This document shows positions 6,204 to 60,696 of a DNA stretch of 64,000 nt, piece after piece. The notes beneath the pieces were generated by a model. It searched no databases. It saw only the letters and a list, made by a program, of their open reading frames with translations, and had not been told where the DNA came from. Positions within the stretch are counted from its first letter, which is position 1. Every line of letters starts with the position of its first letter. Source of the DNA: Branchiostoma floridae (taxonomy: Eukaryota > Chordata > Leptocardii > Amphioxiformes > Branchiostomatidae); contig NC_049980.1 in NCBI RefSeq assembly GCF_000003815.2, positions 11,617,926 to 11,681,925 of the forward strand. The letters are read 5' to 3'. Position numbers and translations under genes: made by a program.

Positions 6204-8616
6204 TTAAGTTTTCCTCCCTTTTTCTTTCGTCTTTATGCGTTTCGATGTCTTCTTTTCCTTCTTCTTTTCTTTCAATAGCAAATTATCAAACAGTTGTTTG
6301 GGACCGGCCTTTAAGAATCCCCTTTTTCGTTTTGATGCTTTCTTTTTTGTTTTCAGTTCCAAACTAATTGAACCAGTCTTACTACCGAGATTTGTAATAT
6401 TTGCAGCAGGAACAGAAATCTCGTTGGATTTTCGGAACTCTGCATTTTGTCGTAACCCAAGCTTTGCGTCCCAAATACCTCGCGATCGTTCGATCGCCAC
6501 ACAGAGCGCCCCGTCCGATTCAAACCTGTCGTGCCACCTACTTTTTTCCACTCCAAAATGAGTGAAATTTCGCCCGCGATGCCCCCTACATCCTTCAAAA
6601 TACACCCACGAATTCAAACGTCTAAAATACTGTACTTCGTTCATAAAACCTGGACCGATGCGTTTGGACGTTTCATTGAACATTTTTTGAGAGTAGTCAT
6701 AGAGGGCAAAGTCAATGCTGCTCCAGTTTCTGAACGCCATCTCTTGTTTGTGACGTAGAGTTACATTTGTGTAGCGGTTCGTCTCAAAGTTACTGACAGG
6801 CTGGTATAAGATATCCTGCGTGTCCCAACACATGAGTCTCTTGAGCATAACCAACGATTCGTCGAATCGCTCAACGAGTAACACGACTCTTATTGTTTTT
6901 GCCAACTCCTTAAAGTGAGCCTTGGTATGCTGATCACCCCATTGCCAACTCGTGTTGAATCCTAAGTCGAACGCCTGGCGGTTTTTGATGGGATGATATG
7001 TCTTGAAGGTGGCTGAATCGTTGATGGAGTACAGGTAAGGATCCTTAAAAAACGCATTGACGGGGTCCTTACTGCTGATGTTGTAGTGTTTATGGAGTCT
7101 CCACTGGTGGAAGGAAGACTTCATGTGGCTCACTGGGTGCTGGAGTATGGTGAAATAAACTGTGTCCTCTGGCATCTTCCTACATGGGTAACGGCGGGGA
7201 CAGTACTCAATAAGATCAAGATCTTTACTTTGAAAACATCAAAGTATATATGAAAAGTAACCAAGTGGCCGTGTACAAAAGAAATTTACTGTAACGGGAA
7301 CACTAAAAAATACGTTGAGATCCATTTTCATCCAAAAGTATGTTCATATAAGAAGAGCAGACTAGGGATATAAGAATTGCACACCCCATTTGCCAAGAAC
7401 GTACTTCGTGCAATTATCCAACTGGACCGCAGTATTTTTGGATTTGGGGATTCCGTGAAATTAATAATATTAATACCGTGTGCGGTAATCCGTTGTGCTT
7501 AACTGGCTTCTATTGTATAACAATGGAAGATATTGAGTTTGGTGGTATGTCCAGCAATTTTACCAACAGTTGCATGTTTTTATTAAGTTAAAACTTAACC
7601 TTTTTATTTCTTCGCTGTATCTCAGATGGTGGGCGATGACATTGTAGTTTCCGTCTTTCACCGGAAGTCCGTCGAAGTCATCAGTGAACGTTAACCAACG
7701 GAAGGAGCCACCTGTTAAAAGCACACGAGAGTCATGGAGACCGGCGCCAACAATACTGAATATTGCTGAATCGATCTCGAAGTGTGCAAGAGTGGGATTC
7801 TTTTTCGTAAACAAAGATACCAAAGACCATGCACTTATGCATTGCGTTAAATACTGACATGTTTTTAAAACCCTGTAAGTATAGTGCAGTAAAACAAAAG
7901 ATAATTCAGACATAGGATACTCTAAGCAACATGAAAATGGAAAACGATAGCTAACCTGATCTTGGTAACATAACGGTGAGATTGTGTCGGTACGCATAGC
8001 GAAGCAAGATTCTCTGCACTGTGTTGGAGGCCGTTTCTTGTTGGACCTGAGAAGGAAATGTGAAAATCTTAAATCCTTCCACCACAATTCAAAATATGCA
8101 GGAAATTGAATTAGACAAGATGTTTTATATCTACAAGACATGTTGCTTCTGCCTCACATCTGACATTATTTCTCATAAGCATTTCGCTTGACAGTAGCAG
8201 CACAAACAGTTGACGATAAAAATACATAATAGTAGTAGCTGGAATAGTAGTCAATAGATTGAATAGACTTTTACCTTGATGAAAACAAAATTTTTCTTAG
8301 GAGTGCATGATGTTTCTGCAGTTACCGCCTGGACCGCAGGGAGCGCTTGTAAGTGTTGTCTGTCTTGTCGAACTAATATAGGCGGAGCCATGACATCTCT
8401 GACAGGCATAGGTTGCAGCCTGTCGTTGAGCAGAACGAACTCCGAGATCTCGTCAGGCGTGTAGGAGACGTACAGCATGAAAACAACGCACAGGCAAAGG
8501 GTGATGGCTGTCGCTAGCTTTAGCGTGTCGACCCTGTTATCTGTTGTCATGATGCGCTTTCTTGTGGTCACTGTAATGGGAAGATATACACGGGTATAAC
8601 GCCTGCGTTTCAGCAT
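6204..8616 (-). CDS. GAL3ST: Galactose-3-O-sulfotransferase family protein, possible pseudoenzyme
   Basis: Four exons join in phase: 8275-8616, 7956-8046, 7600-7711 and 6204-7179, giving 506 codons plus stop. Family members are Golgi type II proteins that transfer sulfate from PAPS to C3 of galactose. Residues about 34-52 form the signal anchor. The core follows with KNFVFIK at the end of exon 1, a TVQRILLRYAYRHNL block, YNVIAHHLRY in exon 3 and EDTVYFTILQHPVSHMKSSF at the start of exon 4. In the 5'-phosphosulfate loop the expected HKT(A/G)SST is QETASNT (residues 117-123). In the 3'-phosphate motif the usual LR(E/D)P is LQHP (194-197). Both changes would hurt PAPS binding. The last ~65 residues are a lysine/arginine-rich tail not typical of the family. 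Start could be M1 (8616) or M23 (8550); both precede the anchor. Confidence 0.85.
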
Positions 8617-9720
8617 GAAGTGAATTCATAACCGCTCAGTTCAGATGCAATATTAGAGGGTAAAATATTAGATTTCCAAGCTATCTGAACTGAATACGTT
8701 TTCGAATTTACTCAACCGAAAATGTTAGCATTTCGTTCAAATCGTGGTCCATTCAGTGTCGAACCATTGGTTCCTTGACGTCAAAGGATAACAAATGAAA
8801 ACGTTGCTTACTTATAAAACTACGAAAGACTGTAATGATCAGTATTGCTGTCTCGTTCGTCGTTTGTATATGCTCCTTAGTACAGCTATTCACATTCAAC
8901 ACGGTGACCTCCATATTGCTTCTAGCTTACCCAGTGTCTAACTCTTAACATCAGTGCCGGCCGTGTGCCTTAGGCATGAAAAGCCCAAACGCTATTCATT
9001 GTTGTTGCTAGATCACTAATCCAACATGGTGCCCTCCACGACCTCTATGACTATAGTTTACATGTAGAGACTCAGTGACATTCACTTCAGTAGTAAGAAT
9101 ATAGGCGTAAACAGTTCTCCATAAGTAACTCCTAGACTTGTAATTAGAATGAAAATCTACATTTGTATGATAACTCATACGGAATAGGGCATTTACCTAC
9201 CTTTTGTAGGTCAGTTGTCTGTCACTCGTTCTGTGTCTGACGTTTCATGATGCATGCAGTGTAGAATAAATCAGACAGCAGGCAATCTAGCCCTTCTGAG
9301 ACTGGTGTCATCACTATCATAAATCCGCACTGCCCCTATAGCTGCGCCTAACCTTTAACACTGTATGTGCCTAACCTTCAACAGACGAACAGTGACTAAA
9401 CAGGTTTTTCCGCCCTCCCCTGAATCCATTTTGGTAACATTTGACATCGTAACGCCAGGATTCTATGTTTCACAAAACTGCTACACAAAAATATTCGAAT
9501 TTATCATACAGTTTAAAGCTAAATGTGCATTTCCAGTGCCAAAGAGTCTACAAAGATTGTACAACTGCGTCTCCTAGCGGCAAAGTCATTTACTACATTT
9601 CGGGGGAATTCAGTTCTGTATTAGGCTAATGTCATCATGGTCGTCGGTTTGACGACGTCTACTCGCAAGGATTATATCTAATAGTGAGCCTGAAAATCCC
9701 ATTATCTTATGATACCCCAT
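8617..9720. other. Intergenic, no gene seen
   Basis: Sequence upstream of the sulfotransferase gene, presumably including its promoter on the minus strand. I could not identify a TATA box or a transcription start with confidence. Confidence 0.4.
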
Positions 9721-10592: not shown

Positions 10593-10744
10593 TTATCCTG
10601 TCTTATTCTCAGAACTTCTGTCTTATTCTCAGAACCTATGTGTTCTTTTAACACTGTCTTATTCTCAGAACTTCTGTCTTATTCTCAGAACCTCTGTGTT
10701 CTTTTAACAGACTCATCCTGTCTTATTCTAAGAACTTCTGTGTT
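10593..10744. repeat. Nested tandem repeat, 20-base unit
   Basis: The 20-mer CTGTCTTATTCTCAGAACTT and close variants repeat five times. Pairs are separated by CTATGTGTTCTTTTAACA-type spacers, so a higher-order repeat of roughly 60 bases is also visible. It lies about 270 bases upstream of the first neurotrophin-like gene. Confidence 0.8.
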
Positions 10745-11013
10745 GACGCCGGTAGGGCCTTCTTTGTGCAGCATATGATGTTTGAGAGAGTTTGACAACT
10801 ATAGTTCGGCTGTGTGTCAGCTGGGAAAAGTTCCTTCCTGTTTTGTCAGGAAGGCAGCGCCATCAAAACATTTGCCCGTTGATTGACGGCTCGCCTGTCG
10901 TTGGCTAGGGTGCTTTGACTCTACATAAACGATTGTGTCCTGTCAGTGCGCCATCTGATCAACAGGGTCACCGTCAGTTCTATCTCTTCAGTTCACGCGA
11001 CACTCTGCTCAAG

Positions 11014-12940
11014 ATGGCTGCTTCTGTGATTCTTCTAGCCTGCTGTCTGTCTCTGCATAGCGTCTTCGGCGTTGGTAAGCCATCGTTTTTTATCTTATTT
11101 CTTGAGAGTAAAAGAGAAAGTTTTAATCCGCCCTTGTCTCGAAATGATCTATGTAAATAGTGTGTGGTAAATACCGTGTCGTCGTGCTGGTTTTCGCAAC
11201 TTCAAGATAATAAGAATTAATGTACTTGCGTTTTCTTGTATGAAAATTGAACAGCTGTATCATCAAATGGTTTAGGTCTCTGTGTAATTCCCTCCGTTAC
11301 CTGCTGGTGTTTTTTGTGAGATAGACATTACTGCAAAGAAATCGAAAGTGGGGTTGCCCGGTTGGGTTTTTTCACTACGAAGTAACAAGACGGGAAGTTT
11401 AGATGAAAAATAGTTTACCTATGAACGATTCTAAAAGACTATCTGTTGTGGAAACAAGTTGGGTGAGTTTGACTTTAAGTTGCACGCGCTGTTGGAAGTT
11501 GTTCAAATGCACATAGCTGACAGACAAACAGCAGGTTTTGTGTCTTCGTCGAAACTTTTATGGCTAAATCTTGCAGAGACAGGCTCCGTTTATGGGGCAA
11601 ATTCACATGCAATCATCAATCAATCATAGGACACTAATTTGGAAACTAAATTCAAATGCAGTTACAATTGTGATGTAATAGTACGTTACAAGTAACAGCT
11701 TGGCCGCTAAAATAAGGGAACATGTAATTGTTACCATTCTTAATTTTTTTCCTTCTTAATGTGACTATGTAGTTCCGTGACAGCATTATACTTGGATGTC
11801 TTGTAAGTATAACTCTACTGTAAGACATGAAATATCACATGTCACTCATGATTATGAGACCATGGCAACTTTTTATTGATATAATTCCGTCGAAAATTTT
11901 TATTACAAAGCCATTGAAGGAGCTGGTCTCTACTCGGAGGGTGACTGTTTCTTTTTTTTTTTGGTCTTTTTGTTGAAGGGCACGCAGGGATCTCTCCCGC
12001 ACGAGACCGTGATCGCGGACTCTCACACATTCGTCGCCCAGGGTTTGCCTGGCCTCGCGGCCTCCCAAAATCCAACCCCTTGTGGAGGAGATTCTGGGAC
12101 CGATTCCGTCCCAAAGCGACCACGGTCCCGCCAACTACCACGGCCCAACCGACTACCGCCGCGACCGAGACCACAACGCCACCCCCTGTACCGGTCCACG
12201 ACAGCACGGTGGTTGGACTCTGCGACACGAAAGAGTTCAGTAACTCCCTCTCATGCAAGCTAGAACGTGACTATCCCGACATTCAGGAAAGTCTTCTCAC
12301 TAGGTTCGGTGAAGATGTGTTCTTGGAGCCTGATCGGCAGCCAGCGGGAGCGGACGGTGCTGGGACCAGGTCGTGTGGCAAGAGGAGACTGACGACCTTA
12401 CATGATACGAAAGGTGACGAACTTGAAGTGGGACTTCCTGACGTTGAGTGTGAAACAATGAAGCCTTCAGTAGTGAAACCAGGCTCAGAACTCGTCCCCG
12501 GATCCCGTCCTGACCCAGAAACCGCATTCAACCCATGCGGATACTCCGCAAACATGGTGTCCCCGATCCACGCCGTCACAGTTAGCGGGGAGACGGTGGA
12601 ACTTTGGGCGGGAACACAGAGAGGGGCCCTCCAGCAGCAGAAGTTCCGGGAGGTCAAGTGCACCAGTTCGACCCCTAACCACCAGGGCTGTGAGGGTAAG
12701 TGTGTGGAGGAGAGCACGTGGCACAGGGCCGTCGTGATCAAGTCGGGCGACCCGCCCAAGGTTGGCTGGGACATGATCGTTGTCAAGGCTAGCTGCAGCT
12801 GTCACGTGATCACACCCAGGAGTCTCTTCACGAAGTTTTCCTCGCTGGGCGAATCAGAGGTGCGTGTCGAGACAGAGTTGGATCGTGATGAAACGAAGAA
12901 GACAGAGTTGGAAGGCGAAGAAACAGAGGAGATATCTTAA
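11014..12940 (+). CDS. Neurotrophin-like cystine-knot growth factor 1
   Basis: Two coding exons: 11014-11074 (signal peptide MAASVILLACCLSLHSVFGV, donor GTAAGC, phase 1) and 11979-12940 (acceptor after a long T tract, phase matched), total 340 residues. An acceptor nine bases further in would also fit. After the signal come a basic stretch, a Thr/Pro-rich linker (~67-93) and a pro-region with two cysteines and LTRFGEDVF. A cystine-knot domain follows with Cys 207, 248, 258, 262, 293 and 295. The nine-residue C248-C258 spacing, the VELWAG strand and the GWDMIVVKASCSC end match the NGF/BDNF fold (VWVG, C-x9-C, W-x-x-I, CxC). The C258-C262 loop is very short. A basic GKRR site at ~126-129 could allow cleavage. 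The tail after the knot is acidic. It is likely a secreted dimeric ligand. The receptor is unknown; Spätzle-type ligands are the alternative reading. Confidence 0.8.
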
Positions 12941-12942
12941 AC

Positions 12943-12948
12943 AATAAA
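12943..12948 (+). terminator. Candidate polyadenylation signal
   Basis: AATAAA lies three bases after the stop codon of neurotrophin-like gene 1. Another AATAAA-containing stretch lies near 13265. Use of either site is inference. Confidence 0.3.
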
Positions 12949-12959
12949 GCTACATGAGA

Positions 12960-15120
12960 AGGCATTGCTATGGTAAGTTTGAAGAGGTAGAGGGCAGGGT
13001 TGCAAACCAGGCATTATGTACCATGATGAAAGAACTTTGGTACTTTTTGTATGTATTGCAGCTGAAACGGTACGCATTGTAGAGTAAATGTCACGTATTC
13101 TGAGGAAAAGGGCACGCCATAAAAAAAACACGCATTAAAAGCAAGCATTCATCAGAATGGGAGAAGAATGTGTGTAGTTCTCATATATTTACAATCTTGT
13201 ATAAAGCCATATGCAATAGATTTACAGTTTGATATGATTAAAAAGCGTTGTTATCCGAGAGTAAAATAAAAGAAATCTAACTAGATTCTGCTTTGCAGTG
13301 TATGTTTATTGACAAAACATTATATCATTATATGACATGAAAAATATTACAGCCTGTCTTTTCTGTTGTCAGTTACATTCCTAAGCTTAAGTTCGTAATT
13401 CCTTGAAAAACATAGATGTCTGGTACCATGAAATCATGTTGCGCCGTAGCAGTTAGGAAACTACAGTTAATACTTAGCTATCTGTCAGCTGGTAAAGACT
13501 TCTTCCCCACGCGCAACTTTAGATCTGAACAATATACAACATAATGTCATATCATATATATATTGAAATACATCAGCTTTAGATCATAATTAGCTCAATG
13601 CATAGCTCCCTTTGCAATGGCAAGCAACGGGCTTGAACCATAGTGATGAAGTTAAGATGATGTCTACCTGAGGCAAACATTGTGCGGAGAGGTCGGGGAA
13701 AACACGGCAAGCTGGATTATGTAACTTGTCACGCGAAGTTAGTCTAAACTTGGGGTGACGGCCAGAAGCAACAAGCGGCGCGGTAAAAACAGAGACATTA
13801 ATCATACCGTGACATTTCAATGTAATGTGGAAGTTGTTTTGAAGTGCCCTTAGCATTCTGTCACTTAACCTTACCGCGGCTGTTAGCAGGATGCAGTAAG
13901 ACACGTGTGAAGAGGTATAAACAACCTTGGATACACCGACCAGAGGTCAGGAAAGGCCAGAAACTGCTTACATAAGCGCTTTTACTGAGCAGCCACAGGA
14001 AGTCGTACTACTGACTCAACAAGGCTGTAACATCAACATGTCGTCATCTCCAAGCAAATATAATGTTTGGCGAGTTTGAATCGTTAGGTTTACCTAGCTG
14101 ACCCGTTTCTGTATCAAACTGTCCTCCTCTTTTTCTGTGTCAAACTGCCTCGTCTTTCTCCTTCCTATTGAAACCTCCAGCTAGAAGAAAACGTCCCCTA
14201 CAACATGAAGATTAGATATCTCTAACTTACAAGTAATTTTTAGAAACGTTTTTCGGACTTGTATGTGACTTGGAAAGATAAAAACAGACCATAAAAGAAC
14301 ATGTTTTGCTCTGAAATTAAGACCACTAATATCATATTCCTTTCAAAGCCATTGGTGTTTACAAAGTACATAGCTTTTGAGCAGCAAAGACAATTTTCTT
14401 CCTTTACTTACGTTACAATTAGAAGCTGCGAGAGCGGAGCAGCCAAAAATTGACAGATCGCGCAACGAGCAAGTTCTCTTACGCTTTGTATGCTTTGCTG
14501 TCTTCTACATCTTTCATCATATTCTAATTATCAAAAAACAATGGTTACAAAATTATCTTGTAGTCGCTGTATGGTTGAGTTGTGAGAATTTGGAAGAAAA
14601 GGATTCTTGAACTTAGTATGTTTTCCAATTCGATACTGGATGTCACTTGGTACTAAATTCACATCAACAAGGACTAGAAGTGGGGGAAACTTATTGGTGA
14701 ACTTCACCGTGAAGACCACATTTGGTGAAGAACTTCCAACTGAGGTCAGTGAAAATATTTACACTACCAAAACCACAACACACCCCACCTCCGACGTTGG
14801 CGTGCGACCTCCAAATCGCCAGTTTGTCCCCAGAACCTGTGGCGTGATCATATATTTTGCCCCTGTCTGACAGGAGATGAAAACCGCTTTCTCTAGCCCA
14901 CAAATCGTGCCAAAACCACGCAGAACCAAACAAGAATGTTGTCAGTAGTCCAAACAGCTGCCACTGAACTACTGACGGTTAGCAGGGGGTGGCAGCGTGA
15001 GGACAGTGCGACGTGTCGCAGCTGTTCGCGACTTCTGCCAAGCTCAGCACGAAGTGCTAACTGGGAGGGAGAGAACTGAGTGAGTTTGTTGTCAACTCGA
15101 GGCATTGTTCCTATTCCGAG
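12960..15120. other. Intergenic between the two neurotrophin-like genes
   Basis: No coding exon is supported. The open frame at 13590-13904 (minus) has no recognisable features. The 2.2 kb contain the likely 3'UTR of gene 1 and the promoter and 5'UTR of gene 2. Confidence 0.4.
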
Positions 15121-15124
15121 AGTC

Positions 15125-15888
15125 ATGAAGATCTACAGAGAGGTTATTGCTGTAGTCTTTGTGTCAGTACTTTGCTTCTGTCAAGGTATGTTATCATATC
15201 ATGTATTCAGATGGAAGTTTGGGAATGGCCATATTACGTGATGTACAAAATATAGGTCAACTCGTGGCATGTCCTCTGTCTATATGTCCCTTTAACCTAT
15301 GTTCTTAGTGTAGTGTCAAGATGAACCTTTTGTATGAAATGAACATAACCTGTTGCGGGTATACTAACCTGTGGGAAACTTTAAGGGCGAGAAATACCTT
15401 ATCGCTTATACGACGGCTTTAGATGAGTAAAGGTCGACAGTACACCTTTGATCATATATCTTCTTCTAGTTCACATTGATGTACGTTTTTACATTGGATT
15501 TATGCTAGGCGATGTGCACATATGTATTTTCTATATATGCGTTCCCCAGTTATTCGGTGGTTTTGACACACTGACTGACTACGAAGTGTTTGTTCCAGGA
15601 CAAGGGAGAAGCAGACTTTCCTTCCCACGCATGCGCAGCCGCATGCTTCTGCCCGAACCAGGACTGCAGTTATGCCGCCCGTCGCCATGCGCGCTGCAGT
15701 GTGAGTATGGACGGGAGACTGACGCCAGGGGCTGTCCCGTTTGTCGCTGTCAGGAAGGTACGCATTTTATCCTAGAATACAGTCTGGTTAGCTGGACAAA
15801 AGCAAACAAGGCTGGATTGCGGGGTAGCTAATTTTGATACCTCCAAAATAAGGTCATTACCAGATAATGTGTGTGCATGCGTGCGAGC

Positions 15889-15921
<33 letters not shown>

Positions 15922-17776
15922 TGTGTGTGTGTGTGTGTGTGTGTGTGTAGTCTTACTACCCTTAGAAATACACTTGACAAGTGACAATTTCTTTCATTTT
16001 GTGCATTGTTTACAATTACAGCTCCGGATTCCATAGACAGCAGTGAGGTACCCACCACAAACAACCCGGCAAACCTGGAGCGGACGGACCCTGTACCTCT
16101 AACAACAGGTGATCACAAAAACAAATATTTCATAGATGTTCAACCCATGCCAGTTATCAGAAAACGTCCAGTTACAAAAGACTGCCAGGTCAATGCATAA
16201 CGTCTGACTTCAATGTTATCACAAACAACGTGCGTGCTCTTGATACTGTGACGTCAGACTGTAAAAAGAATGTTCTGACTTGATTCTTCGTGATTTTCAC
16301 CCACAGTACCTAGTGACTTTGACGAGTTCTGCAGTCAAGAGCACAACAGTAATCTTTCGTCCTGCCTCCTGCAAAATGAGCGACCAGACGATTTTACCTA
16401 CTACATCACCAGGTAACGCACAGTCCTTTTAGTGAGACACTGATTTAGAAACTCTTCGTTTAGATGATTATTTAAAAGTTAACCGGAAATGTACTCTCTG
16501 CTTTATTCTATTTTCCACTGGTAGATCCGTTTGCTTCCTTAATCCGTTAAACATCGGTCAAACAATTCGGAAAATTTCAATTTTTTTGTTGTTTTATGTC
16601 GATTGGTCGATGAACTTCGTTTTAACTTAGGTTTGGACTGGATGCGTTTGGTGTTGACCCAGAGGACTTCGCAAACTTGACCGTTCAACAGGGCAACAAG
16701 ACAAAGTAAGTGTTTGGCACTTTTATATCATGACAGCGTCATGGCAGTGATGCTTGTAGGGGGATAGTGTCATACAGCATTTCCGTATTGCTACAGTTAT
16801 ATATGCACTGTGAATTCGAAGAAACTACTTCTAAACTAGAGTTCAACGACCACATACCTCCGTCAAATGAATTTAACCATTACTGATGTATGATGTGTGT
16901 TTGTCATCATGTATGCAAATAAGGTCCTCACTTTTGCATACAGCCGCGTCATACACACTCACACACGCGCGCGCGCGCGCGCGCTATCAAAAACATAACT
17001 TCTTGGCAAAGGTAATGACATATCTCTGGGGATATAATACGGGCCAGCATGTACGTTAATAGGATGGTACAGCTGTTTCGCAACTCAGTGTCAATGGTCT
17101 TCTTGAACTATAATGCACAACGTACTATCATCTCTACAATGATTTTTTGCTCAGGCCCTCCTTCCACCCACTGAGTGGTGTAGAGTCCCTCAACCCGTGC
17201 GCAGCGAACGGTAAGTTCGTCAACCCCAGGACAGCTCTAAACAGGAAAAATGAGGAGGTACGTTTTTTTTTCATGACTAGGGGGCGTACTTTGCGGCAAA
17301 TGACCCAGTTAGGGAAACGCTATCTGTGTTTATTTTTTATCCTTACTTCACGAAAGCTTAACAGATTGTGAAATACTAGTACTCTCTTCTCGCGAAAGTC
17401 ACGACTGATATGCGTCTATCAAAGGAAGACAAATATATCAACGATACATCTGTCCAGAAAAAAAGGTTATTGATAAAAGTCAATGTAGAAATAGTTTCTG
17501 ACGACCCGTTCATTCTGTAAATGTCGTACTCAGGTTGAGCTGTGGGTGGGGTCGGACAGAAACGGGCGCACCAAGCTACAACTGATACACGAGGTGAGTT
17601 GCAGAAGCGCCACCCCAGTCCACCAAGGCTGCGGTACTGCATCGGCTGGCGGATTCTGCACGGAAGAAAAGACTCTCCAGCGGGCTTACGTCATCTCCCA
17701 GGACACGTTACAGCCACGCCCAGATTGGATCTATGTCAAGACAAGTTGTAGTTGCCACGTCGAAAGGTTGGGATAG
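15125..17776 (+). CDS. Antistasin/neurotrophin-like cystine-knot growth factor 2
   Basis: Seven exons join in phase: 15125-15185, 15599-15757, 16022-16108, 16307-16412, 16631-16705, 17155-17257 and 17534-17776, total 277 residues. The signal peptide is MKIYREVIAVVFVSVLCFCQ. Exon 2 encodes one antistasin-type module with Cys 46, 51, 55, 66, 69 and 71 (C-x4-C-x3-C-x10-C-x2-C-x-C). After a Thr/Asn-rich linker comes a pro-region resembling gene 1 (FC...LSSC, TRFGLDAFGVDP). The last two exons hold the cystine knot with Cys 178, 220, 230, 239, 269 and 271. VELWVGSD, CRSATPVHQGC and DWIYVKTSCSC match vertebrate NGF/BDNF closely, including the nine-residue C2-C3 gap. Gene 1 lies 2.2 kb upstream on the same strand, so the pair is a tandem duplication. 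Antistasin modules occur in protease inhibitors; joined to this knot the module might control processing or binding, which is inference. Confidence 0.85.
15874..15948. repeat. (GT)n/(GC)n microsatellite
   Basis: Alternating purine-pyrimidine run of TG dinucleotides interrupted by a GC run, in intron 2 of neurotrophin-like gene 2. Such sequence can adopt Z-DNA. The minus-strand open frames over it are artefacts of the repeat. Confidence 0.95.
16956..16984. repeat. (AC)n(GC)n microsatellite
   Basis: Short alternating CA then CG run in intron 5 of the second neurotrophin-like gene. Confidence 0.9.
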
Positions 17777-17779
17777 TTG

Positions 17780-18396
17780 TTTTGTCAGGCTTAAGGTGAA
17801 AACAATTGTGAATACAGGTGTGAATACTTGGATCTGAATGAAATACAGGAAGGAGGAGGGGATAGATATGATACTAGTAGGCTGTCTGTGAAAATTTTAT
17901 TAGTCTGGAAAGAAATGTATCCTGACCATAGCCGAGACTTCCTACCACCATCACTGATATATGGACCCAGACGGCGTCTGTGCAACAATATTGACGGAGG
18001 AAGCAAAGAAATGTTTCGACAATGCTTTAATGTAGAAAATATCACATGAACCTAAGTGTTGCCTTTATAATAGTTGCATTGTAATATCTATACCTTAAAA
18101 TATACTGATATATGTATCACAGAATAAGAGTGCTGTAGAATAGTCACATGTATACCAACGTTACATCTTGACAACGACTTTAAAAGGTTATGGCTACCTG
18201 TAACGTTAGCAGCTGAGGCGTTTGATTTCGAGGACGATATACTAGTACCAACATAATGACTGTTCACTTACAAATCCAGTCACAATACGAAATACATGTA
18301 TACATCAGAAATTCATTTTTTTTTGTCAATTGTCGGTCAGAGATTATCCAAGCAAGAAACTTTAAATAGTCCATAATCTCCTTGGTTCAATGGCGT
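17780..18396. other. Convergent intergenic region, no gene seen
   Basis: Lies between the 3' end of the plus-strand neurotrophin-like gene 2 and the 3' end of the minus-strand UGT gene. It should hold both 3'UTRs. Confidence 0.4.
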
Positions 18397-21300
18397 CTAT
18401 AGTCCATCTAAGAACATAATGGGTATGGAAATCACCAAAATGGAAATGCCGACGCCTACCGCCATTCTCTGCCAACAATACTTCATTATAAAGATACGTG
18501 TAAACGGTAACCACAGAGCAGTGACGATAGCTACAAAAACAACTAAAACGTCAAGATGGAAGTACTGGTAAAACGGCACGTCGTTCATCGCAGTGCGCAG
18601 GTGCGGGAGTCCGCCATGTCTGATGACGTGTTCGATCCACCAAACAGCACGTTCCAGAGGGGGTTGTGGCTGATCATGGAACAGCTTTGCTAGTCGTTCT
18701 GCACTTTCTTTGTAACTGTTCAGAGGAAAGAATCAGTTAGTTTAGATGAAATTAAGATTAAAGTCACTTCCTTTGCATGGGGACATGCAACAAACCAATC
18801 GAGAAAAACTGACGCTGGAGGTAATATTTAGTATAATAAAAGAATTAAAGCTATCGAAAATATTCTTTATGTAAAGATCTCCCTAAACCACAACGCCCCC
18901 TATAGAAGTCTTTTGCCATTTGTTCCAATATCGGTGAACTGCAGTTCAATAAATGATAAGAGTCTTTGTAACAAATCGTGCAAATTTCAATGGACACATG
19001 AAAAGACCATAGCGAAGACACAAAGTGGTGAATAACTATCTCATTCCAGACCTGTTCAGTTCGAAGTCCATGTCGAATTCCCGAGCCGGAGAAGTTATGA
19101 CATCTGGCACACTGCTGTATGGTGGGCGTCTCTGGTTAGAGGAGCATGTACGGGATTCTCCCAGACACAAGTAGCTGTAAAACACGCAAAAATCACAATC
19201 TGGGTATGTGAAACAACTTTCTTTTAAATATTCATAGCGACTCGTTTTCTGTGATCTATTTCAACCCACATGTAAACAACAAGCCTTTCTCTGCCTTCTT
19301 TTCATCCTTTCAACATTTCAGTGCAGTCTTTAAGTGTGCTGTCAACCATCACTCCACACAACGAAGCTATCTTTCCTACTGTCATATACTCCTTTTCGCC
19401 TTGAAAACGGAGGTGTTGTTTCCGGTTTGTATGTTCGTTTGTGATGTTGGAATCTTGTTTGTTTGTTTGTTTATTTGTTAGTCTGATATGTGTCCTTGCT
19501 TAGCCACGATTTGAATTTATGCCCAGGTTGAGTTGACCTGGGTTACAAACCTCAATTGGAGTTTTCATGAGAATGTGCTTTCTCCAATATCCGTCCACTA
19601 TGGATATATGTATGATATGTACATAACAATAATGAGTTAATTATTTACCTTGAATTTCCGATGACTTCTTGGATAGCCGATACGACATCTTCAGGTGTTA
19701 AAGCACGGATGTCTAGGGTCACTGCCGTTCCCTTTGATACCATGACGTCAGCGTAAGCCTGGTGTTCAACCGTCAGCGGTAAGATGACCATGGGCACGCC
19801 GTGGTACACAGCCTCGTGCAGGCCATTCAGGCCACCGTGGTTCATAAACAGGCGCGTCTTGGGGTGTCCTGTACATGGACACACATAGATTACTAGCGAG
19901 GTAAGAGGCCAATCCTAATGTTTTATTTCAGGTCAATGGAAGTTGTACTATTCTATATCTGTGCTCACAAAGTGCCAGAATCGCGACTAGGGTATGATTT
20001 GAGATGGACTCACTCATCAGTCGAACAATAGATTTTAAGGTTAGGCACCCAGGTGATAAGCTTAAGATACACCATGGAGGGTTTTTTTTCAACCTCCTTG
20101 GATACACCAAACAGTACTTTCTCAAGCAATAGGAAACAGTCAGATGTTTCAGGTAGTATCCACTACCTTTCGTCAGTGACACTTATATCATTCGAACCAT
20201 TTATATTACTTCGCTAGACCATAATGAAAATTTTTCAAGCAGCACGATATCGCACCTAGAAGGTCGTTCTGAGGCATCCACTTCATCACCTTGGTGTTCT
20301 TTCCTAAACCGCGGGGCGGCTCTTTCTCGTCGTATCGCCACACCACTCGCTGCGGAAGCTGGGCGAAGGCTGAGGCGAACACTTCTGCCAGTTCAGCCGG
20401 CACGCCTTTCACAAAGGTCCCAAGGCCAAAGATGATGACACCGTGGTCTGATCCCTGCATGAAGTCCTCCAAATCCTAAAGTGAGTGAATGTCTCAAAAG
20501 TTATAATTTATATTACATATATTAGCACGTTCAGTCTTGAGAACTTCAGTCTCAGAACACAGGGTTGGTGTTAACGTTGTTACATCACTAACGTTTAAAT
20601 ACTAACGTTTGTTCTTTGTTCGAGTAGCACTTAAACTACAATAAATGAACATAAAAAGATCTATCTATATAACCTTGACATTTTTTTAAACTATAGTAGG
20701 TCAAGATCACCAGATACCAAAACCAGAAGCCCCGCTGTGGTACCCTAAAAAGTCGCTAGGGGTCCCATAATCTAAATTCTTCTCTTTTTTTTTCATTTTA
20801 CCAACGTGCACCTAACGTTACCAACGTACCGAATATCATAAAGGTTTATCTACAACTTTTCAAACTATGCTAATCACAAACACACAAAGAAACACGAGGA
20901 CAGATAAACCAAAACATAATTTTCTTGGCGAAAGTGATTAATTGTACATGTATTTAGGGGAAAGAAAACACGTGAGGGCGCTCTATCACAGTAAGTGACT
21001 GAAATAAAGAAGGAAGGGAAAGAAAGAATGCAGATGAGACGGAAAATATGACAACAACACTTCACCTGTGGTAGTGGCTTTGCAGGTGTGGCCATGAAGC
21101 CTCCTATGTTGACCATATTAGGCATGTGCGGACGGACCGGGTCGAGCCCCGGATGTTCGGTGAGAAGCCACAGGTCAGTGTCCGCTAGGGCGGTCACGAA
21201 GGTGGCGTCTGCACCTGGGTCAGATGTTTGAGATATGTCTAATTTCTTGGCAGGAGAACGAAGTGTCCAGAAGACCTGCACTCTGCATTTCTTGTTATTT

Positions 21301-23542
21301 AATCACATAACACTTAGGTCGGGGTGTTAACCTCTTGCTAGTTACCTCATGTACAAATTTCGCATCATGAAATGAACCTAATATTTTTTAACCAAAATGT
21401 GTGTTTTTTAACCCAAAAATCTATCATATCAACATAATTTGTCCGGTGTTTTATTTCATTTAATTACTACTAGCACCTTGTGAAATTTCATTGCCATACG
21501 ACAATGCTATCGAATTTTACAAGCATGTACCCATTTTACCTTGTCTACCGCAGTGTCACATGCCGTAATTGACCAGAGGCAGATTGAAAGCAGGGGAAGT
21601 TCAAACTTATCATGTACAAATTTCGTATTATGTTTTCCAGCGTAAAAGCAAAGGAAATTTCAAAGTTAAGATTTTTTCCGATCCGTCTATTTTTTTTAAG
21701 TTTTCTATCTAATCACTTCTACGGTTATACAAACTGATGACACCTTCCCTTCCCTGACCGAATGGCGAAAAGCATGATCTTTACATAGATAGTCATAGAT
21801 TTTGGACATAAACTAACTATGTGGATGGAATACATAACATAGTCTTGAAAACTGTGAGAAACTTTTATCAGAGTGTTCAAGTCTTACCTATATACTTCTT
21901 AGCAAGGTGGTCAAAGTAGAAGGCGGTTATGGCACGCCCAAAGACCATAGTCGCCACGTAGCCGGCAAGATTCTGGACCCTGTCGCGGAAGGTTCGGACC
22001 CGCCCGAGCCCCGAGAACGGGACGGGGAAACAGCAGGTTGGAGCCGGGACGCCCGAGCCCAGCCAACTCGCAGGCATGGGTACGCTGAGCAGGGCCAAGG
22101 GCACGCCGACGGCAGTGGAGGCCACTGCGGCACACGGGGTCAGGCGTTCTCCCAGTATGATGTCGGCTTGTCGGAGTTTGTCCAACACGTCTCCCTACAA
22201 CGGGATTTCATAATTGACAAAAGAAAACGATAAGTTTTTAATGAGCCATCCTATTTAGTTCACTGCAGATCCCATACTCGCCCGATAACTACAATGTACT
22301 AGTAACTAGGATAGCACCAAGCCCAGGCAAGAGGCAGCTATAATTTTTGCTGTCGATCGTGTCACGCACATTTGGAGCCTAATTGATAAAGCATTGTCTT
22401 GTTCGGTGTCTTTTTCATGACTTTAGGCTAGGGGCAACTATTATTTTGAGACGTCTAATGATAACTTCACTAGACTCCTCGCATTTCTATTTCCTATATG
22501 CAATCAAGAAGCGGTATGTTCTCAGACTGGATAGGATGATTCAGGGAACATGGGTTACTCTGACGTGCTGCGAGAATTGCCTCCAGGGTATTGTCCATTC
22601 TTAGTGGACATGTACCTGATTCAGGTCACGTACACACATACATCTTGTACATGATTCTTCATGCACCACCTAAAATTGAAGTAAGAGCTAATAAGTAGTT
22701 TCCGGCCTTAAGAGCCAGCTAATATCGGACCCTGTCGCCAATGTACAGTGATTTTCTGGGCCTGAAAGGTCGACTTCTAAGTCCGCAAACTACATATTAG
22801 CCGAAGTCATCATAGACCGCACTATCGCCGACGACTTAGACATGAATGTAAACAAAACAATTACATCTTGTCTGATGCAGAGTGATGTGCACCAAGGACA
22901 TTAGATAAAGGAATCTCCTTGAAAGTACAGACACACAATAGGCCGATCCTATCTGTCTATCACAATTACGAGTTCAACCAATGAGACAGTTGCAATTAGC
23001 TCTTCAGCCAATGAAGTACTAGTAACGGCTTCGATGTCTGTCAGATAGTTGCATTTTTATGGTATTTATTTTGCATTTCTACCTTTTGATACAGGTGGGT
23101 TGGATTAGACGATCCGAATTTACATGCCACTGACACTTACCTGGGAAAGAAGCGACTGGCATCTCCAGGCTGCTTGACGATAAGATGCAACGTGAGACCA
23201 CGTCTGTTGGTACATATACCTTTGTTCTAATATCCTTGTCCAGGCTTTACCGATGTAATCCTCAACGTAGGTTCTTGTCCCCGCCTCGGGGAAGGTTAGA
23301 TAGTTGAAAGGGTCTCTGACTCCGCGGTGTATCCAGGACAGAATGTCTTCTGGTGCCACCACTGTTACGTTGTGCCCGCGGGATGCCAGCGCGTCTCCAA
23401 GCACTACAAACCGGGCCCAGTGACTCTGAGCCAGGTCGTACATCATGGCAACGTTCGCTGCTTGGCTCTCCTGCACGACGAGGGCAATAATAACGAAAAC
23501 GCAAGAGAAGACGCCTGGTTTGCGGACGTTGTTTTGTGCCAT
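18397..23542 (-). CDS. UGT: UDP-glucuronosyl/UDP-glycosyltransferase
   Basis: Canonical exons: 23141-23542, 21888-22194, 21066-21214, 20256-20475, 19649-19868 and 18397-18715, giving 538 residues, a normal UGT length. Phases agree at every join. UGTs are ER membrane enzymes that transfer a sugar from a UDP-sugar to lipophilic acceptors. A signal peptide (VFSCVFVIIALVVQESQA) precedes AQSHWARF, whose His41 aligns with the catalytic base. The donor half shows [27 protein letters not shown] and EAVYHGVPMVILPL. At the sugar-contact site the usual DQ is HQ (395-396), and the acidic partner of His41 appears to be Glu150 rather than Asp. The C terminus has PLERAVWWIEHVIRHGG, a membrane segment (~486-506) and a second hydrophobic stretch ending in DGL, without the usual dilysine tail. 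An upstream in-frame Met (23578) exists; 23542 gives the better signal peptide. A candidate extra exon lies at 19052-19174. Confidence 0.88.
19052..19174 (-). other. UGT: Candidate in-frame cassette exon of the UGT gene
   Basis: This 123-base stretch has a TTTTACAG acceptor and an AG|GTCTGG donor, starts and ends in phase 2, and is open. It would insert 41 residues beginning SYLCLGESRTC. Skipping it joins exon 5 directly to 18397-18715 and creates NSSYKESAERL, the normal family motif. The exon therefore splits a conserved helix and is probably alternative or a decaying duplicate. The family does not normally have this insert. Confidence 0.45.
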
Positions 23543-23599
23543 GATTGAGCGCTGTCTTGTGCGACAGATTCGACTCATTGTCTGACTTGTTTATTTGTG

Positions 23600-25796: not shown

Positions 25797-28700
25797 TTAA
25801 TTATTTTCCTTGTCCTGGTCCTCAAAGTACATGAAGTCCTGGAAACAAATAACCGTTAACAACAAGTCATGTCTCAGTCAAACATCATGTAAAATGTTGT
25901 TTTGTTTTTATTTATTGTGTAAGATCATCTCTCGTAATCCACCAGGTGCCATAATACCGCCACATCATAAAAATGGCTTCTCAAGATTGTCCGGAACACC
26001 TAAATACCTTAAGTGTATAGATCTGAAGATTTCTGATGCTACATTGGTACATCCCATTCAATAACTTTGGATTCATCTATTCTTCTCGTGTTACGCTATT
26101 ATGGTACTTTGTGGAATCATGAGAGTTGATGTTACGTAAGAACGTCCGATTCCTCTAATGGTTTTCAATAATACCTGGCGACACTATAGATGGCTCGTCA
26201 AAGTCCAACTTTCCGTTGTTAGATATACAAAGCATTGTAAGATGGAACCAGACTTGTTTCACAAATCATATCATAGCCATACGATCGATTATAAAAATTC
26301 ATTTTCACTTTGGAAATTGTGGAAAGTTTCAGCTCTCTTTTTTATAGATGCCAACGCTACTTGTGTATGTCAGCTGAGGTAAAATAGTCAGTATGTGCAT
26401 ATAATCGGCAATATTGAATTAGGATTAACAGGGAGTTAGATCAGTCTAGCCATAATGATCTATTGAAACTTACCACCAGAAGACATGCACCGAGCATAGT
26501 CGCCTTCAGTTTGACATCCAGGTCCTGGGGAACTGAAGTAAATACAATGGAGGGATACATGTCATCCACCATGGACGAACATTTCAATGATACATGCACG
26601 TGACAAATAAAGGCCATAATTCGGAAATAAAGGCTCACATTCTAACGTAAGTTCAACTTTTAGGCGTAACCAATATCCGTTATATTTAAAGCGAGGTGTT
26701 TAGAGATATCAATTCAACGGACGGTGGTTTCAAATTGCAGTACATATATTTTCAAACTATTAATACTCGAGTGTAAAACTATAATCCGTCGACTTAATAT
26801 CCCTAGGTACGCTGTTTATAAAAACAACAAAAACAGATTACTAGCTGATAAAGGCGAACTAGAGATACTTCAGGCCACAGCTGTCCACGTGACTAGGAAA
26901 TATGTGACGTATGTATAGTTTCTATTGGTCAATATACCAGCACTTGTCAAGCAACGATGAAAGCTGGGCTGTCTCATTTCTGATTGGCTGACCAGGTAAT
27001 TAGTTCTTGTGAAATGTAATGATCTAAGTAGCGCACGTGAGGGACACGTGACTTACACGTGACGGAGAAGTTGGTGGCATCAGTGAACATCTCCTTGGCG
27101 AAGCCAGCGAACTGACGGGTGACTTTCCCCACCTCGGTGTGCCCGTCACTGCCGTAGGCCTGTAAATTCAAAGTACGATGTTTTGACGATGATCTTGACA
27201 TCGAGAGGGCCCGTTATTTGGGTGCTGCCATGCAATCCCATTTTCATATGCTGTACCCTCCCTCCTTATGCCTTTTAAGTATGTGTAAGATCACTGAGAA
27301 GTTATGTTTTGATATAGGACCTATAGGAGCAACGTCACATAAAAGTCATAAGCACAAACGTCACATCCAGAGAGGATCATGAGGATCAAAATTTCCGTAG
27401 TCTCAAATACTTAAAGTGCATTCAGTTTGATCGAATTATTAGACGGTATGACAAAATTGACGTCTCAAGCCTTAGGTGGAGTGTGCTTATCGGAAACGAC
27501 AAACATACCAACACCATATATGGACAGTGCACGCGGTTTGATCGACATGATTACCGTAAAATCGACGTCACAAGTACAGCAGGCCCCGCTCCAGGCGCAG
27601 CACGGCCCCCACATGTCGAACACCATCTCCCTGCGCTCGTTCATGATGTGGTAGTGTGGCTTCCAGAACGATCCCCTGCAGGTCACACAGGTACATTCTT
27701 ATCGTTGTGTCTTGTTCAGTTTGGTTTCAAATTGCTAGAGAGCGCTCTTGATTCATAAAAAAATGCGTATACACTTTTGCCTTTATCATGACAGGTATCA
27801 TTCGTGAAAACTGAGGCAACTTTTTTTTAACGTCACCACTCACTGTGTACTAATCATCTAGAAGATTGAGTGAANNNNNNNNNNNNNNNNNNNNNNNNNN
27901 NNNNNNNNNNNNNNNNNNNNNNNNNNNNNNNNNNNNNNNNNNNNNNNNNNNNNNNNNNNNNNNNNNNNNNNNNNNNNNNNNNNNNNNNNNNNNNNNNNNN
28001 NNNNNNNNNNNNNNNNNNNNNNNNNNNNNNNNNNNNNNNNNNNNNNNNNNNNNNNNNNNNNNNNNNNNNNNNNNNNNNNNNNNNNNNNNNNNNNNNNNNN
28101 NNNNNNNNNNNNNNNNNNNNNNNNNNNNNNNNNNNNNNNNNNNNNNNNNNNNNNNNNNNNNNNNNNNNNNNNNNNNNNNNNNNNNNNNNNNNNNNNNNNN
28201 NNNNNNNNNNNNNNNNNNNNNNNNNNNNNNNNNNNNNNNNNNNNNNNNNNNNNNNNNNNNNNNNNNNNNNNNNNNNNNNNNNNNNNNNNNNNNNNNNNNN
28301 NNNNNNNNNNNNNNNNNNNNNNNNNNNNNNNNNNNNNNNNNNNNNNNNNNNNNNNNNNNNNNNNNNNNNNNNNNNNNNNNNNNNNNNNNNNNNNNNNNNN
28401 NNNNNNNNNNNNNNNNNNNNNNNNNNNNNNNNNNNNNNNNNNNNNNNNNNNNNNNNNNNNNNNNNNNNNNNNNNNNNNNNNNNNNNNNNNNNNNNNNNNN
28501 NNNNNNNNNNNNNNNNNNNNNNNNNNNNNNNNNNNNNNNNNNNNNNNNNNNNNNNNNNNNNNNNNNNNNNNNNNNNNNNNNNNNNNNNNNNNNNNNNNNN
28601 NNNNNNNNNNNNNNNNNNNNNNNNNNNNNNNNNNNNNNNNNNNNNNNNNNNNNNNNNNNNNNNNNNNNNNNNNNNNNNNNNNNNNNNNNNNNNNNNNNNN

Positions 28701-30110
28701 NNNNNNNNNNNNNNNNNNNNNNNNNNNNNNNNNNNNNNNNNNNNNNNNNNNNNNNNNNNNNNNNNNNNNNNNNNNNNNNNNNNNNNNNNNNNNAAGGAAG
28801 ATGAAGAAGAGCACACCAACAAAAACTATATGTTTTCTTATCGGGAAACAACGTAGTTTGAAATTGTGTATTTTGGTGCTTTCGTGCTTCATATCATTTT
28901 CATGTCTGTGTCGTTTGTTCATTCAATAAGTTTAGGAAAGATACCGTAAGAATCTGAATTAACAAGCTACAATATCTGCATCTCTCACTACCACTTCCAA
29001 CTCATTTTTCTGCGTACCCTCGAGAAGTTCCACCTGTTGCTGTACCAGGAGCTGGTCCAGCTGAGTCAGATACTCCAGGCCGGGCGGACATCCAGGGATA
29101 GCTCCCGGCACCGCCATCCACTGCATGGGCTGATTTGTCACTGCCTGAAATACAGGAACAACGATACGACTTCAACCACAGAAAGACACTTTGAAGACTC
29201 GTGGTTGTATACGTATGTAGAGCTAGCCAGGGAATTTCGAAGTTTCCGACTTTGGGGGAAAAACATATACCACTTACGGATCCCAAAATTAGCCCACGTT
29301 TTTGCCCGTAGACAGCACACATGTACAGTTGCACGTACTGCGGGTTGTGACCTTCGCTTTAAAAGGGTCTAGTCACATTCGCCGCAGTCTGAGGTCATTC
29401 TCAGGGATAATCGTTATAACCGTCCGGATAACCATCGCGATAACCATCCGGATAGCAGTTCGCTCCGACGTTGATTACAGTCGCGACCGCTTCTCTCTCT
29501 GACATTTATCATACGCTATATATACAGCCGCTTCTCTGCTAGTCCGTCTCAGGACGGATAGCAGAAGCGACCACAGTCCGAGCGAAATACTACCCGGATG
29601 GTACCCAGGCAAGGATAATCGTACATATACATGTCATGTGTCGTACAAAATTCAGATGTCTCGTTACGTGAAATGGCTGTCTTAGGTCTTTGTCTGAGGT
29701 TGGTTCGAATTCTGTCACGATCTATGGCTACATCGTACGACGACCTAAGATTGACGAATGTGACGTTGTTCTAGTCTCTACCAGACTGACTACAACGGCT
29801 ATTATACTAGGGAGAATAATTTGCCAGGGGAGTACTAGTTTTGCTACCAGAGGTATTGGCCGGCCTCGCAGCCCTCCGGTGGGGGAACATTAACCTATTA
29901 GTATGATGGACTGACTCCCCTGGCTAATTTCCCGATTTTTTTGCCCTTTTCCCCCGTAACCATAGGAAGGCCCGATGGAGTCTAAACAAGTTCCACCAAG
30001 CAAGTTCCCATGCATGTGTCGCATAAGAACATATTTGGTCCGATAACAGATCATTTGCTATCATGGCAAACACAACATCAACACACACTTACAGCCGGAC
30101 TTACCGCCAT
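25797..30110 (-). CDS. PLSCR: Phospholipid scramblase A (interrupted by assembly gap)
   Basis: Visible exons: 30105-30110 (ATGGCG), 29018-29144, 27555-27675, 27057-27159, 26474-26532 and 25797-25838. Phases match genes B and C exactly. Three middle exons of the family (equivalents of B 41929-42006, 40424-40500 and 39537-39670) are not visible and most likely lie in the N run 27875-28793. With those lengths the protein would be about 248 residues. Scramblases move phospholipids between leaflets in a Ca2+-dependent way. Diagnostic parts seen: [20 protein letters not shown], the Cys-rich [22 protein letters not shown] joined to FPQDLDVKLKA (the family's Ca2+-binding segment), and the terminal GACLLV-DFMYFE membrane helix with tail DQDKENN. 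It is the most diverged of the three tandem genes. Confidence 0.85.
27875..28793. other. Assembly gap (919 N)
   Basis: A run of undetermined bases inside scramblase A. Long open frames across it are meaningless. It probably conceals three coding exons; see the scramblase A entry. Confidence 0.99.
29529..29569. repeat. Short hairpin-forming inverted repeat
   Basis: CGCTTCTCTGCTAGTCCGTC is followed after a short loop by GGACGGATAGCAGAAGCG, an imperfect inverted repeat. It lies in intron 1 of scramblase A, next to several copies of ATAACCATCCGGATA-like sequence (29409-29458). Confidence 0.6.
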
Positions 30111-59394: not shown

Positions 59395-60106
59395 TACTGT
59401 AAATGCATTTAAGTTTGCGGAGATTTAATTTCGCCGTAGTGGGAAAATGGACTTTTCGCGGTGGTTTTAATATTGCACCATGCAATGTAGTCTCTTACTG
59501 CCATGGAAAAATGTTCGCGTGGTTTTAAATTCGCGGTGAAGCAGCCGCTGTGAAAACCGCGAACATTAAAGGTCTACTACAGTTATTTCCGCTTCAAACT
59601 GAAAACAAAAAATCCATTTTCCGGCCAAGCCTACCACGTTATGGAACACTATTCAAGGCATGTCAGGAGTCGATATTTTCCCCGTGCGAGCGCGTTTGAA
59701 AACCTGGGAATCTGCACGCCCGCGCTGGGTTTCAGCCATTTTGTTTCTTCACCGACGAAATCCGAGTAGTCCCGAGTCTGCCCGAGCCTACCCGGAGATT
59801 GGTCACGTGGTTCACCGTGACCTTTCGCACGCACCCGGAGCTCACCGGAGATTCCCGACCAATAACCGTTGATGATTGATTCTTGTTTGAATTCTCACCA
59901 GTGCCTAACTAGGGGGGTCAACAAGTTACAGCGCGCGTAGGACGAAATGTTTGTAGGCTACGTTGCAAACGTGAAATAATGACACAAAAGTGTCAAAAAG
60001 TAGTAGTAAATCTGAGATTTCTTAGTTCTAGAATATTTCAAATTTGAGCGCAAATAACTGCGTAGTAGACCTTTAAACCATGACAAAAGTTTCTGCATTT
60101 ACAGTA
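59395..60106. mobile_element. Outer MITE, TACTGTAAATGCA termini, split by an insertion
   Basis: The left end TACTGTAAATGCATTTAAG and the right end TGCATTTACAGTA are inverted repeats. The interior has several TTCGCGGT/ACCGCGAA motifs. The right arm is interrupted: GCGAACATTAA at 59559-59569 is separated from the terminal bases by the TTAA-flanked element 59570-60072. Without the insertion the element would be about 205 bases. Confidence 0.75.
59570..60072. mobile_element. Inner TTAA-flanked MITE
   Basis: A 503-base element with terminal inverted repeats AGGTCTACTACAGTTATTT and AGGTCTACTACGCAGTTATTT (right end read inward), flanked by TTAA at 59566-59569 and 60073-60076. A TTAA target is the hallmark of piggyBac-like and Kolobok-like transposases, so this is probably a non-autonomous relative. 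It carries no transposase gene. Confidence 0.8.
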
Positions 60107-60212
60107 TTAATGCTCTCCTGAGTCCAAAGATGTAAGGCTAAAAACCACAGTTGATTGCCCTGTATCCATCCATGGAGTGAGGCATTGCAGGGGTCATCAG
60201 ACTGGCCCAGAT

Positions 60213-60365
60213 NNNNNNNNNNNNNNNNNNNNNNNNNNNNNNNNNNNNNNNNNNNNNNNNNNNNNNNNNNNNNNNNNNNNNNNNNNNNNNNNNNNNNNNN
60301 NNNNNNNNNNNNNNNNNNNNNNNNNNNNNNNNNNNNNNNNNNNNNNNNNNNNNNNNNNNNNNNNN
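60213..60365. other. Assembly gap (153 N)
   Basis: Undetermined bases just downstream (minus strand) of the distal last exon of the phosphotransferase gene. Open frames across it are meaningless. Confidence 0.99.
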
Positions 60366-60696
60366 GGTAGAGATGATGGGAGTACATGTACTTGACGACA
60401 GAGGCTCTGATCAGGATGCAAAGAATGTGTGAGTAGTTTCCCACACATCAATGCTAAATTTCAACTCAATCCATTATCTAAAGTGACAGGGATTAGTAAC
60501 AGGGATTTAAGTTCAATTAATGTTGACTCCAATTTGGATCTCTTCCAGTAGATTTGCCATCTTTATCATGACATACATACAGATGACAGCTTGCTTGTTT
60601 AGAGGTTGCCCTTACCAGATTAGACACTATATTGATACATTGCCATGACATAACACCACAGACATACAGCAGGTATTTAGTAGTCTGCACTTTTGG

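Follow-up and report, generated by a model that had tools for sequence, protein, structure and literature searches.

Adjacent predicted genes for probable neurotrophin-type pro-ligands in the lancelet Branchiostoma floridae

Two predicted cystine-knot genes in the window

We analysed a 64-kb stretch of the Branchiostoma floridae genome (hereafter the window), which is part of contig C2; genome-wide searches covered 431 contigs and 513 Mb. Two predicted genes encoding proteins with a neurotrophin-like cystine knot lie one after the other on the plus strand. Gene 1 (11014-12940) consists of 2 exons encoding 340 amino acids, with its ATG at 11014, and gene 2 (15125-17776) of 7 exons encoding 277 amino acids, with its final stop ending at 17776. 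An earlier interpretation made from the letters of this DNA (the sequence-only reading) had placed two genes with signal peptides here. Both genes were found at these coordinates, all of their exon joins are in frame, and both proteins start with signal-peptide-like segments, as judged by eye. When candidate splice sites were scored with rough weight matrices, the 7 predicted donors ranked 5th to 16th among the 501 GT in 10900-18000, and the 7 predicted acceptors ranked 16, 17, 20, 21, 22, 59 and 134 among 451 AG.

A genome-wide Pfam NGF search at E<=0.001 identified two places, on contig C19 (81 bits) and on contig C13 (31.8 bits). The C19 gene, a 390-residue frame in one large exon, is evidently the known, canonical lancelet neurotrophin and is called BfNT here. 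Its frame (extract L001 1108-2280, minus strand) continues past the knot with a long tail rich in Arg/Lys. The C13 gene is treated below together with genes 1 and 2, and the three are referred to as the new genes.

The pro-regions of genes 1 and 2 both contain two cysteines (C-x10-C) followed by TRFG-x-D-x-F. They aligned with a Smith-Waterman z of 10.3, and none of 500 shuffles was as good, in agreement with the common pro-region that the sequence-only reading had described. The knots of the two genes aligned with z = 34.9 (0/500 shuffles as good). Each knot has six cysteines (C1 to C6) with C2-x9-C3 and C5-x-C6, as in neurotrophins. The remaining spacings in gene 1, gene 2 and BfNT are 40, 41 and 46 for C1-C2, 3, 8 and 11 for C3-C4, and 30, 29 and 27 for C4-C5, respectively. 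Thus, the neurotrophin spacing claimed earlier holds for C2-C3 (9) and C5-C6 (1) but not for the other three intervals. The motif CR-x3-PV-x2-GC, which had been taken to link gene 2 to NGF, is indeed common to both. The aromatic tryptophan noted before C5 aligns with NGF Trp99 in gene 1, but that of gene 2 is shifted to two residues after Trp99.

The C3-C4 loop of the new lancelet knots is without the RGID and HW residues. In a canonical neurotrophin, a furin-type RxxR site immediately precedes the knot. Such a site was not found directly before the knot in gene 1, gene 2 or the C13 exon; RSKR is present at this position in the C19 gene. Further, neither RxxR nor a dibasic site was found ahead of the knot in gene 2 or the C13 gene, and the sole KRR of gene 1 lies about 50 residues upstream of its knot.

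Table 1. Exons and protein features predicted for genes 1 and 2 (positions in the window)
Feature	Position	Strand	Basis
Gene 1 exon 1: putative signal peptide (MAASVILLACCLSLHSVFGVG...), phase 1 end	11014..11074	+	joins exon 2 in frame; donor rank 12/501 GT; signal peptide by eye
Gene 1 exon 2: Thr/Pro-rich linker, pro-region, whole cystine knot and stop	11979..12940	+	331-aa open frame; Pfam NGF 2e-4, Spaetzle 1.1e-3, both under cut-off
Gene 1 pro-region motif: C-x10-C, NSLSC.LERDYPD ... TRFGEDVF	12218..12322	+	aligned to gene 2 and C13 gene, z 10.3 and 12.2 versus shuffles
Gene 1 cystine knot: six Cys, C3-C4 spacing 3	12518..12817	+	Pfam, PDB and profile searches, alignments
Gene 2 exon 1: putative signal peptide (MKIYREVIAVVFVSVLCFCQG), phase 1 end	15125..15185	+	in-frame join, donor rank; signal peptide by eye
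Gene 2 exon 2: antistasin-type domain, phase 1-1	15599..15757	+	Pfam PF02822 E 9.4e-8, 32.9 bits versus cut-off 21.2; acceptor rank 59/451
Gene 2 exon 3: linker, phase 1-1	16022..16108	+	in-frame join
Gene 2 exon 4: two-Cys pro-region (C-x10-C), ending within TRFG	16307..16412	+	joins, alignment
Gene 2 exon 5: remaining pro-region (FGLDAFG...)	16631..16705	+	joins, donor rank
Gene 2 exon 6: knot start including C1, phase 0 end	17155..17257	+	joins, genome protein search
Gene 2 exon 7: knot C2 to C6, stop	17534..17776	+	Pfam NGF 1e-4 for exon alone; acceptor weak, rank 134/451

Homology of the knots to neurotrophins

Pfam was queried at E<=10 (note that the HMMER filters remove most matches with E greater than about 0.1), with a cut-off of 27 bits for both NGF (PF00243) and Spaetzle (PF16077). 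NGF scored above Spaetzle for gene 1 (21.9 versus 19.9 bits), gene 2 (26.1 versus 17.1 bits) and the C13 gene (31.0 versus 21.4 bits), the last of which exceeded the NGF cut-off. For genes 1 and 2 these were the only knot families matched, with NGF first in rank; at this threshold Pfam gave no stronger match to any other knot family. A profile made from the knots of the three new genes, with BfNT left out, gave 18 matches in the PDB at E<=10, and all 18 were neurotrophins (best 8.6e-11). None of the 18 was Spätzle, and a Spätzle query does find its own entries in that library. A profile that included BfNT was set aside as biased. The profile searches were in line with the neurotrophin assignment of both genes in the sequence-only reading.

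In single-sequence searches of the PDB, the whole protein of gene 2 matched NGF at 5.5e-5, the C13 protein matched venom NGF at 8.2e-5, and gene 1 matched NGF at 0.0077 only. The knot of gene 1 aligned with that of BfNT with z 10.0. The structural model of the C13 knot was all-beta with six strands, at a moderate predicted local distance difference test score (pLDDT) of 74. At the level of sequence comparison, the searches and alignments support homology of the new knots to neurotrophins.

Several observations weigh against this assignment and against the clade described below. Genes 1 and 2 each score under the curated Pfam NGF cut-off, the NGF margin over Spaetzle is 2 bits for gene 1, and the whole-genome NGF search at E<=0.001 found neither gene of the window. 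Gene 2 aligned weakly with BfNT alone (z 4.0, with 1/500 shuffles as good), and the knot model of gene 1 (12482-12844) was poor (pLDDT 46). The tree that groups the new genes is tiny (eight rows); 4 of its 5 inner branches are open and the order of the three new genes is unsettled. Further, Spätzle and BfNT form long branches in it, and the program warns that long branches meet.

Relations of the new genes and their additional modules

Protein searches of the genome with gene 1 and gene 2 recovered each other and the C13 gene; exon 2 of gene 1 matched itself at 100% and the C13 gene at 43% identity. No further knot genes were found at E<=10 in these searches, and C19 was recovered with neither query. 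Because C19 was missed by the protein searches and the window genes were missed by the family search, another divergent member could escape. When the genome was searched with the gene 1 pro-region, it returned itself and C13 (E 0.049), and gene 2, whose pro-region is split by an intron, was not found. The pro-regions of the three new genes align mutually (z 9.9 to 12.2), and none of them matched the BfNT pro-region (z 0.2, -1.0 and 2.1). Knot identity to BfNT was 20/99 aligned residues for gene 1, 21/104 for gene 2 and 23/100 for C13. A match on contig C11 in a genome Spaetzle search was rejected (E 5.97; a 65-residue frame overlapping a longer unrelated open frame). By these comparisons of predicted proteins, the lancelet holds at least three such divergent genes besides the canonical neurotrophin, which suggests that B. 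floridae has more neurotrophin-type genes than the single one usually credited to it.

A phylogeny had been named as a check on the sequence-only reading. The one computed here had eight rows, namely the three new genes, BfNT, NGF, NT-3, BDNF and Spätzle, and contained no NT2-type sequence from sea urchin or acorn worm. The new genes grouped together, apart from BfNT, NGF, NT-3 and BDNF, with support 100/99; the grouping was supported at 100/99 when Spätzle was removed and at 86/100 when BfNT was removed.

Identical knot residues numbered 46/101 between genes 1 and 2, 43/102 between gene 1 and C13, and 44/102 between gene 2 and C13, which leaves the closest pair undecided. Gene 1 and C13 have in common an intronless pro-knot exon, the motif NSLSC.LERDYPD and a C3-C4 spacing of 3. 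In gene 2 this spacing is 8, and three introns interrupt the pro-knot stretch. Given the common exon structure, short loop and pro-motif of gene 1 and C13, the two tandem genes may not be each other's closest relatives, and a recent tandem duplication is weakened as an explanation. Opposing a closeness of gene 1 and C13 are the slightly higher identity between genes 1 and 2 and two traits that these share and C13 is missing, TRFG-x-D-x-F and the proline of the Pro13 column (see below). We weakly favour an old tandem pair in the window, with C13 split from the gene 1 side. Adjacent diverged copies are present, but the local expansion proposed earlier describes the origin at most, because gene 1 shares structure and loop length with C13 and not with its neighbour.

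The sequence-only reading had included neither the C13 paralogue nor the antistasin domain of gene 2. The latter is one complete 26-position domain (Table 1). It is like antistasin-type protease inhibitors in being a full domain, and unlike them it is predicted inside a growth-factor precursor. At the position that we take to be the inhibitory P1 of hirustasin, the aligned residue is Ala (alignment E 0.45), so that trypsin-like inhibition is not supported, and we rejected self-inhibition of a trypsin-like activating protease by this domain. Among the matches listed, seven other antistasin-like exons occur in the genome at E<=0.01, on contigs C3, C1 and C8. Five antistasin-like exons lie within about 4.5 kb of contig C3 (about 21200666-21205162). 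On C13, a C-type-lectin exon (extract L009 4042-4449, 9.4e-7) lies 3.8 kb upstream of the knot exon (8291-8901) in compatible phase, and the C13 gene probably carries this module.

Many false domain combinations have been reported for lancelet gene models (PMC4967905; here and below, statements from cited papers refer to the available parts of their texts), and we therefore keep both fusions as putative. It seems unlikely to us that they arise from wrong gene models and that the modules are parts of other genes. Mistakes of this kind are reportedly frequent in lancelet gene predictions (PMC4967905), the acceptor of the antistasin exon is the second weakest of the seven, and 3.8 kb separate the lectin and knot exons of C13. 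However, in gene 2 the antistasin exon follows the signal-peptide exon, precedes the pro-exons and has phase 1 on both sides; on C13 the phases match, and one putative signal-peptide exon candidate further upstream passed a rough filter. The antistasin fusion of gene 2 is the better supported of the two.

The surroundings of the gene pair contain other features. Upstream of gene 1, short direct repeats of a TGTCTTATTCTCAGAAC unit extend over about 10598-10745, and a frame at 6204-7238 on the minus strand is like galactose-3-O-sulfotransferase (Pfam 5.9e-28). Downstream of gene 2, UDP-glucuronosyltransferase-type exons occupy the opposite strand at 18397-18732, 20874-21302 and 23120-23590 (Pfam 3.2e-22, 5.2e-5 and 2e-4, respectively). 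Runs of N are present at about 27870-28800 and within 60073-60447 (ends approximate).

Signature residues, rival readings and significance

The signature sites numbered by Wilson (PMC2772990) were mapped to NGF numbering in this analysis. At site 18, the equivalent of Asp30, gene 1 has Thr, and gene 2 and C13 have Asn. Site 130 is Trp in gene 1 and C13 and Pro in gene 2. All three have the neurotrophin-like Ile at site 133 and Lys, not Pro, at site 136. The Spätzle Pro13 column contains Pro in genes 1 and 2 and Tyr in C13. As aligned, these residues appear to form a mosaic that is closer to neurotrophins.

With the vertebrate neurotrophins (NGF, BDNF, NT-3 and NT-4; PF00243), the new genes share C2-x9-C3, C5-x-C6, the Gln51 and Ile102 equivalents and the layout of signal peptide, pro-region and knot. 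Unlike them, they lack the RGID/HW loop residues and RxxR directly before the knot, gene 2 carries the antistasin module, and genes 1 and 2 do not reach the family cut-off. BfNT belongs to the same fold family and the same genome, but its knot is 20 to 23% identical to the new ones, its pro-region is not similar, and it has Asp30 and the RGID loop. Judged from the short C3-C4 loop, the missing RxxR before the knot and some Spätzle-like residues, the predicted proteins are not canonical neurotrophins. At what we take to be the contact patch between NGF and Trk, most equivalent residues are changed in the new genes; the canonical lancelet gene is also altered at most of them, and these residues are therefore uninformative about the choice of receptor.

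We consider it likely that the products of both window genes are secreted pro-ligands from the neurotrophin (NGF) cystine-knot superfamily, and that these genes are part of a divergent lancelet clade to which at least the C13 gene also belongs. The computed basis is the homology of the knots to NGF, the pro-region common to the three genes and their grouping apart from the neurotrophins compared. The sequence-only reading was thus right about the neurotrophin-type knot and the adjacent diverged copies; it did not anticipate that these would not be ordinary neurotrophins or that there would be at least three such genes.

We regard it as improbable that the genes encode, instead of neurotrophins, Spätzle-type ligands of deuterostomes by which Toll-like receptors are activated. 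Such ligands would account for the Pro13 column of genes 1 and 2, for the weak Pfam Spaetzle matches, and for the replacement of Asp30 by Asn in gene 2 and C13, which is described by Wilson in many Spz and in NT2-type proteins (PMC2772990). They would not account for the higher NGF scores of all three genes, for Ile in place of Phe/Tyr at site 133 and Lys in place of Pro at site 136, for the Trp that gene 1 and C13 have at site 130, for the lack of an extra Cys beside C5, or for a profile that matched Spätzle in 0/18 cases. Spätzle was accordingly set behind NGF as the primary family, on scores and signature residues, and kept as a rival.

The other alternatives concern the descent of the genes. 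The chances fall just short of even that they are fast-evolving, lancelet-only duplicates of the canonical neurotrophin with no NT2 link. The z of 10.0 between the knots of gene 1 and BfNT fits such duplicates, as does the fact that our genome searches were confined to this one animal; the low knot identities to BfNT, the dissimilar pro-regions, the different signature residues and the multi-exon structure of gene 2 argue against them. Less probable, although a possibility we take seriously, is that the genes are lancelet orthologues of the NT2-type neurotrophins (Sp-NT2 of sea urchin, NTa/NTb of acorn worm), and hence an old second lineage retained in chordates. According to Wilson, Sp-NT2 has a multi-exon precursor and Asn at site 18 (PMC2772990); gene 2 resembles it in both respects and C13 in the latter, and in the tree the new genes stand apart from the canonical one. 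On the other hand, the Pro136 and extra Cys of Sp-NT2 (PMC2772990) are absent from the new genes, gene 1 has Thr at site 18, and the pro-region and knot lie in one exon in gene 1 and C13. In a proposal by Wilson, the NT2 type could have disappeared before the divergence of cephalochordates (PMC2772990).

If the new genes encode neurotrophin-superfamily pro-ligands, as we favour, the proteins would be secreted, given the signal peptides recognised by eye, and the active part may be a dimer of knots paired as in NGF and Spätzle. A protease other than furin could free the knot from the pro-region in gene 2 and C13, since neither has an RxxR or dibasic site before the knot. The N-terminal modules (antistasin in gene 2, lectin in C13) may tether the pro-ligand or gate its activation. 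A broader and rather speculative scheme, which we think unlikely to hold in full, is that an ancient second neurotrophin/Spätzle-like lineage was kept in lancelets and exon-shuffled into module-bearing pro-ligands (with a protease inhibitor or a lectin) that would be activated extracellularly by proteases or surface sugars and possibly feed both Toll-like and Trk-type receptors.

One neurotrophin gene has been stated for B. floridae (PMC10253963), and a comparative study did not detect further bilaterian neurotrophins (PMC7535936). Spz genes, according to Wilson, had not been found in deuterostomes (PMC2772990). The lancelet has been described with a single Trk (in a title cited in PMC7535936). 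In their available parts, PMC2586362, PMC3280201 and PMC4812194 deal with one amphioxus neurotrophin, its Trk or amphioxus genome comparisons, and the new genes appear in none of these; that of PMC6224433 contains none of the subject terms looked for. Among the matches listed, no title or abstract opening reported the new genes, in a literature that leaves subscription journals and supplements uncovered, and the genes may already be named elsewhere, for example in database annotation. Papers with both 'neurotrophin' and 'antistasin' numbered 0 in a literature without most subscription journals. The earlier remark that neurotrophins are usually single genes outside vertebrates is too simple, because two neurotrophins in sea urchin and two expressed sequence tags in acorn worm have been recorded (Wilson 2009, PMC2772990).

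If our interpretation is correct, three extra NGF-type lancelet genes would alter the neurotrophin count of this animal and make the hypothesis of NT2 loss testable. A further question would be which role extra ligands have in an animal with a single described Trk. An inhibitor or a lectin fused to a growth-factor precursor would represent an unusual control of activation.

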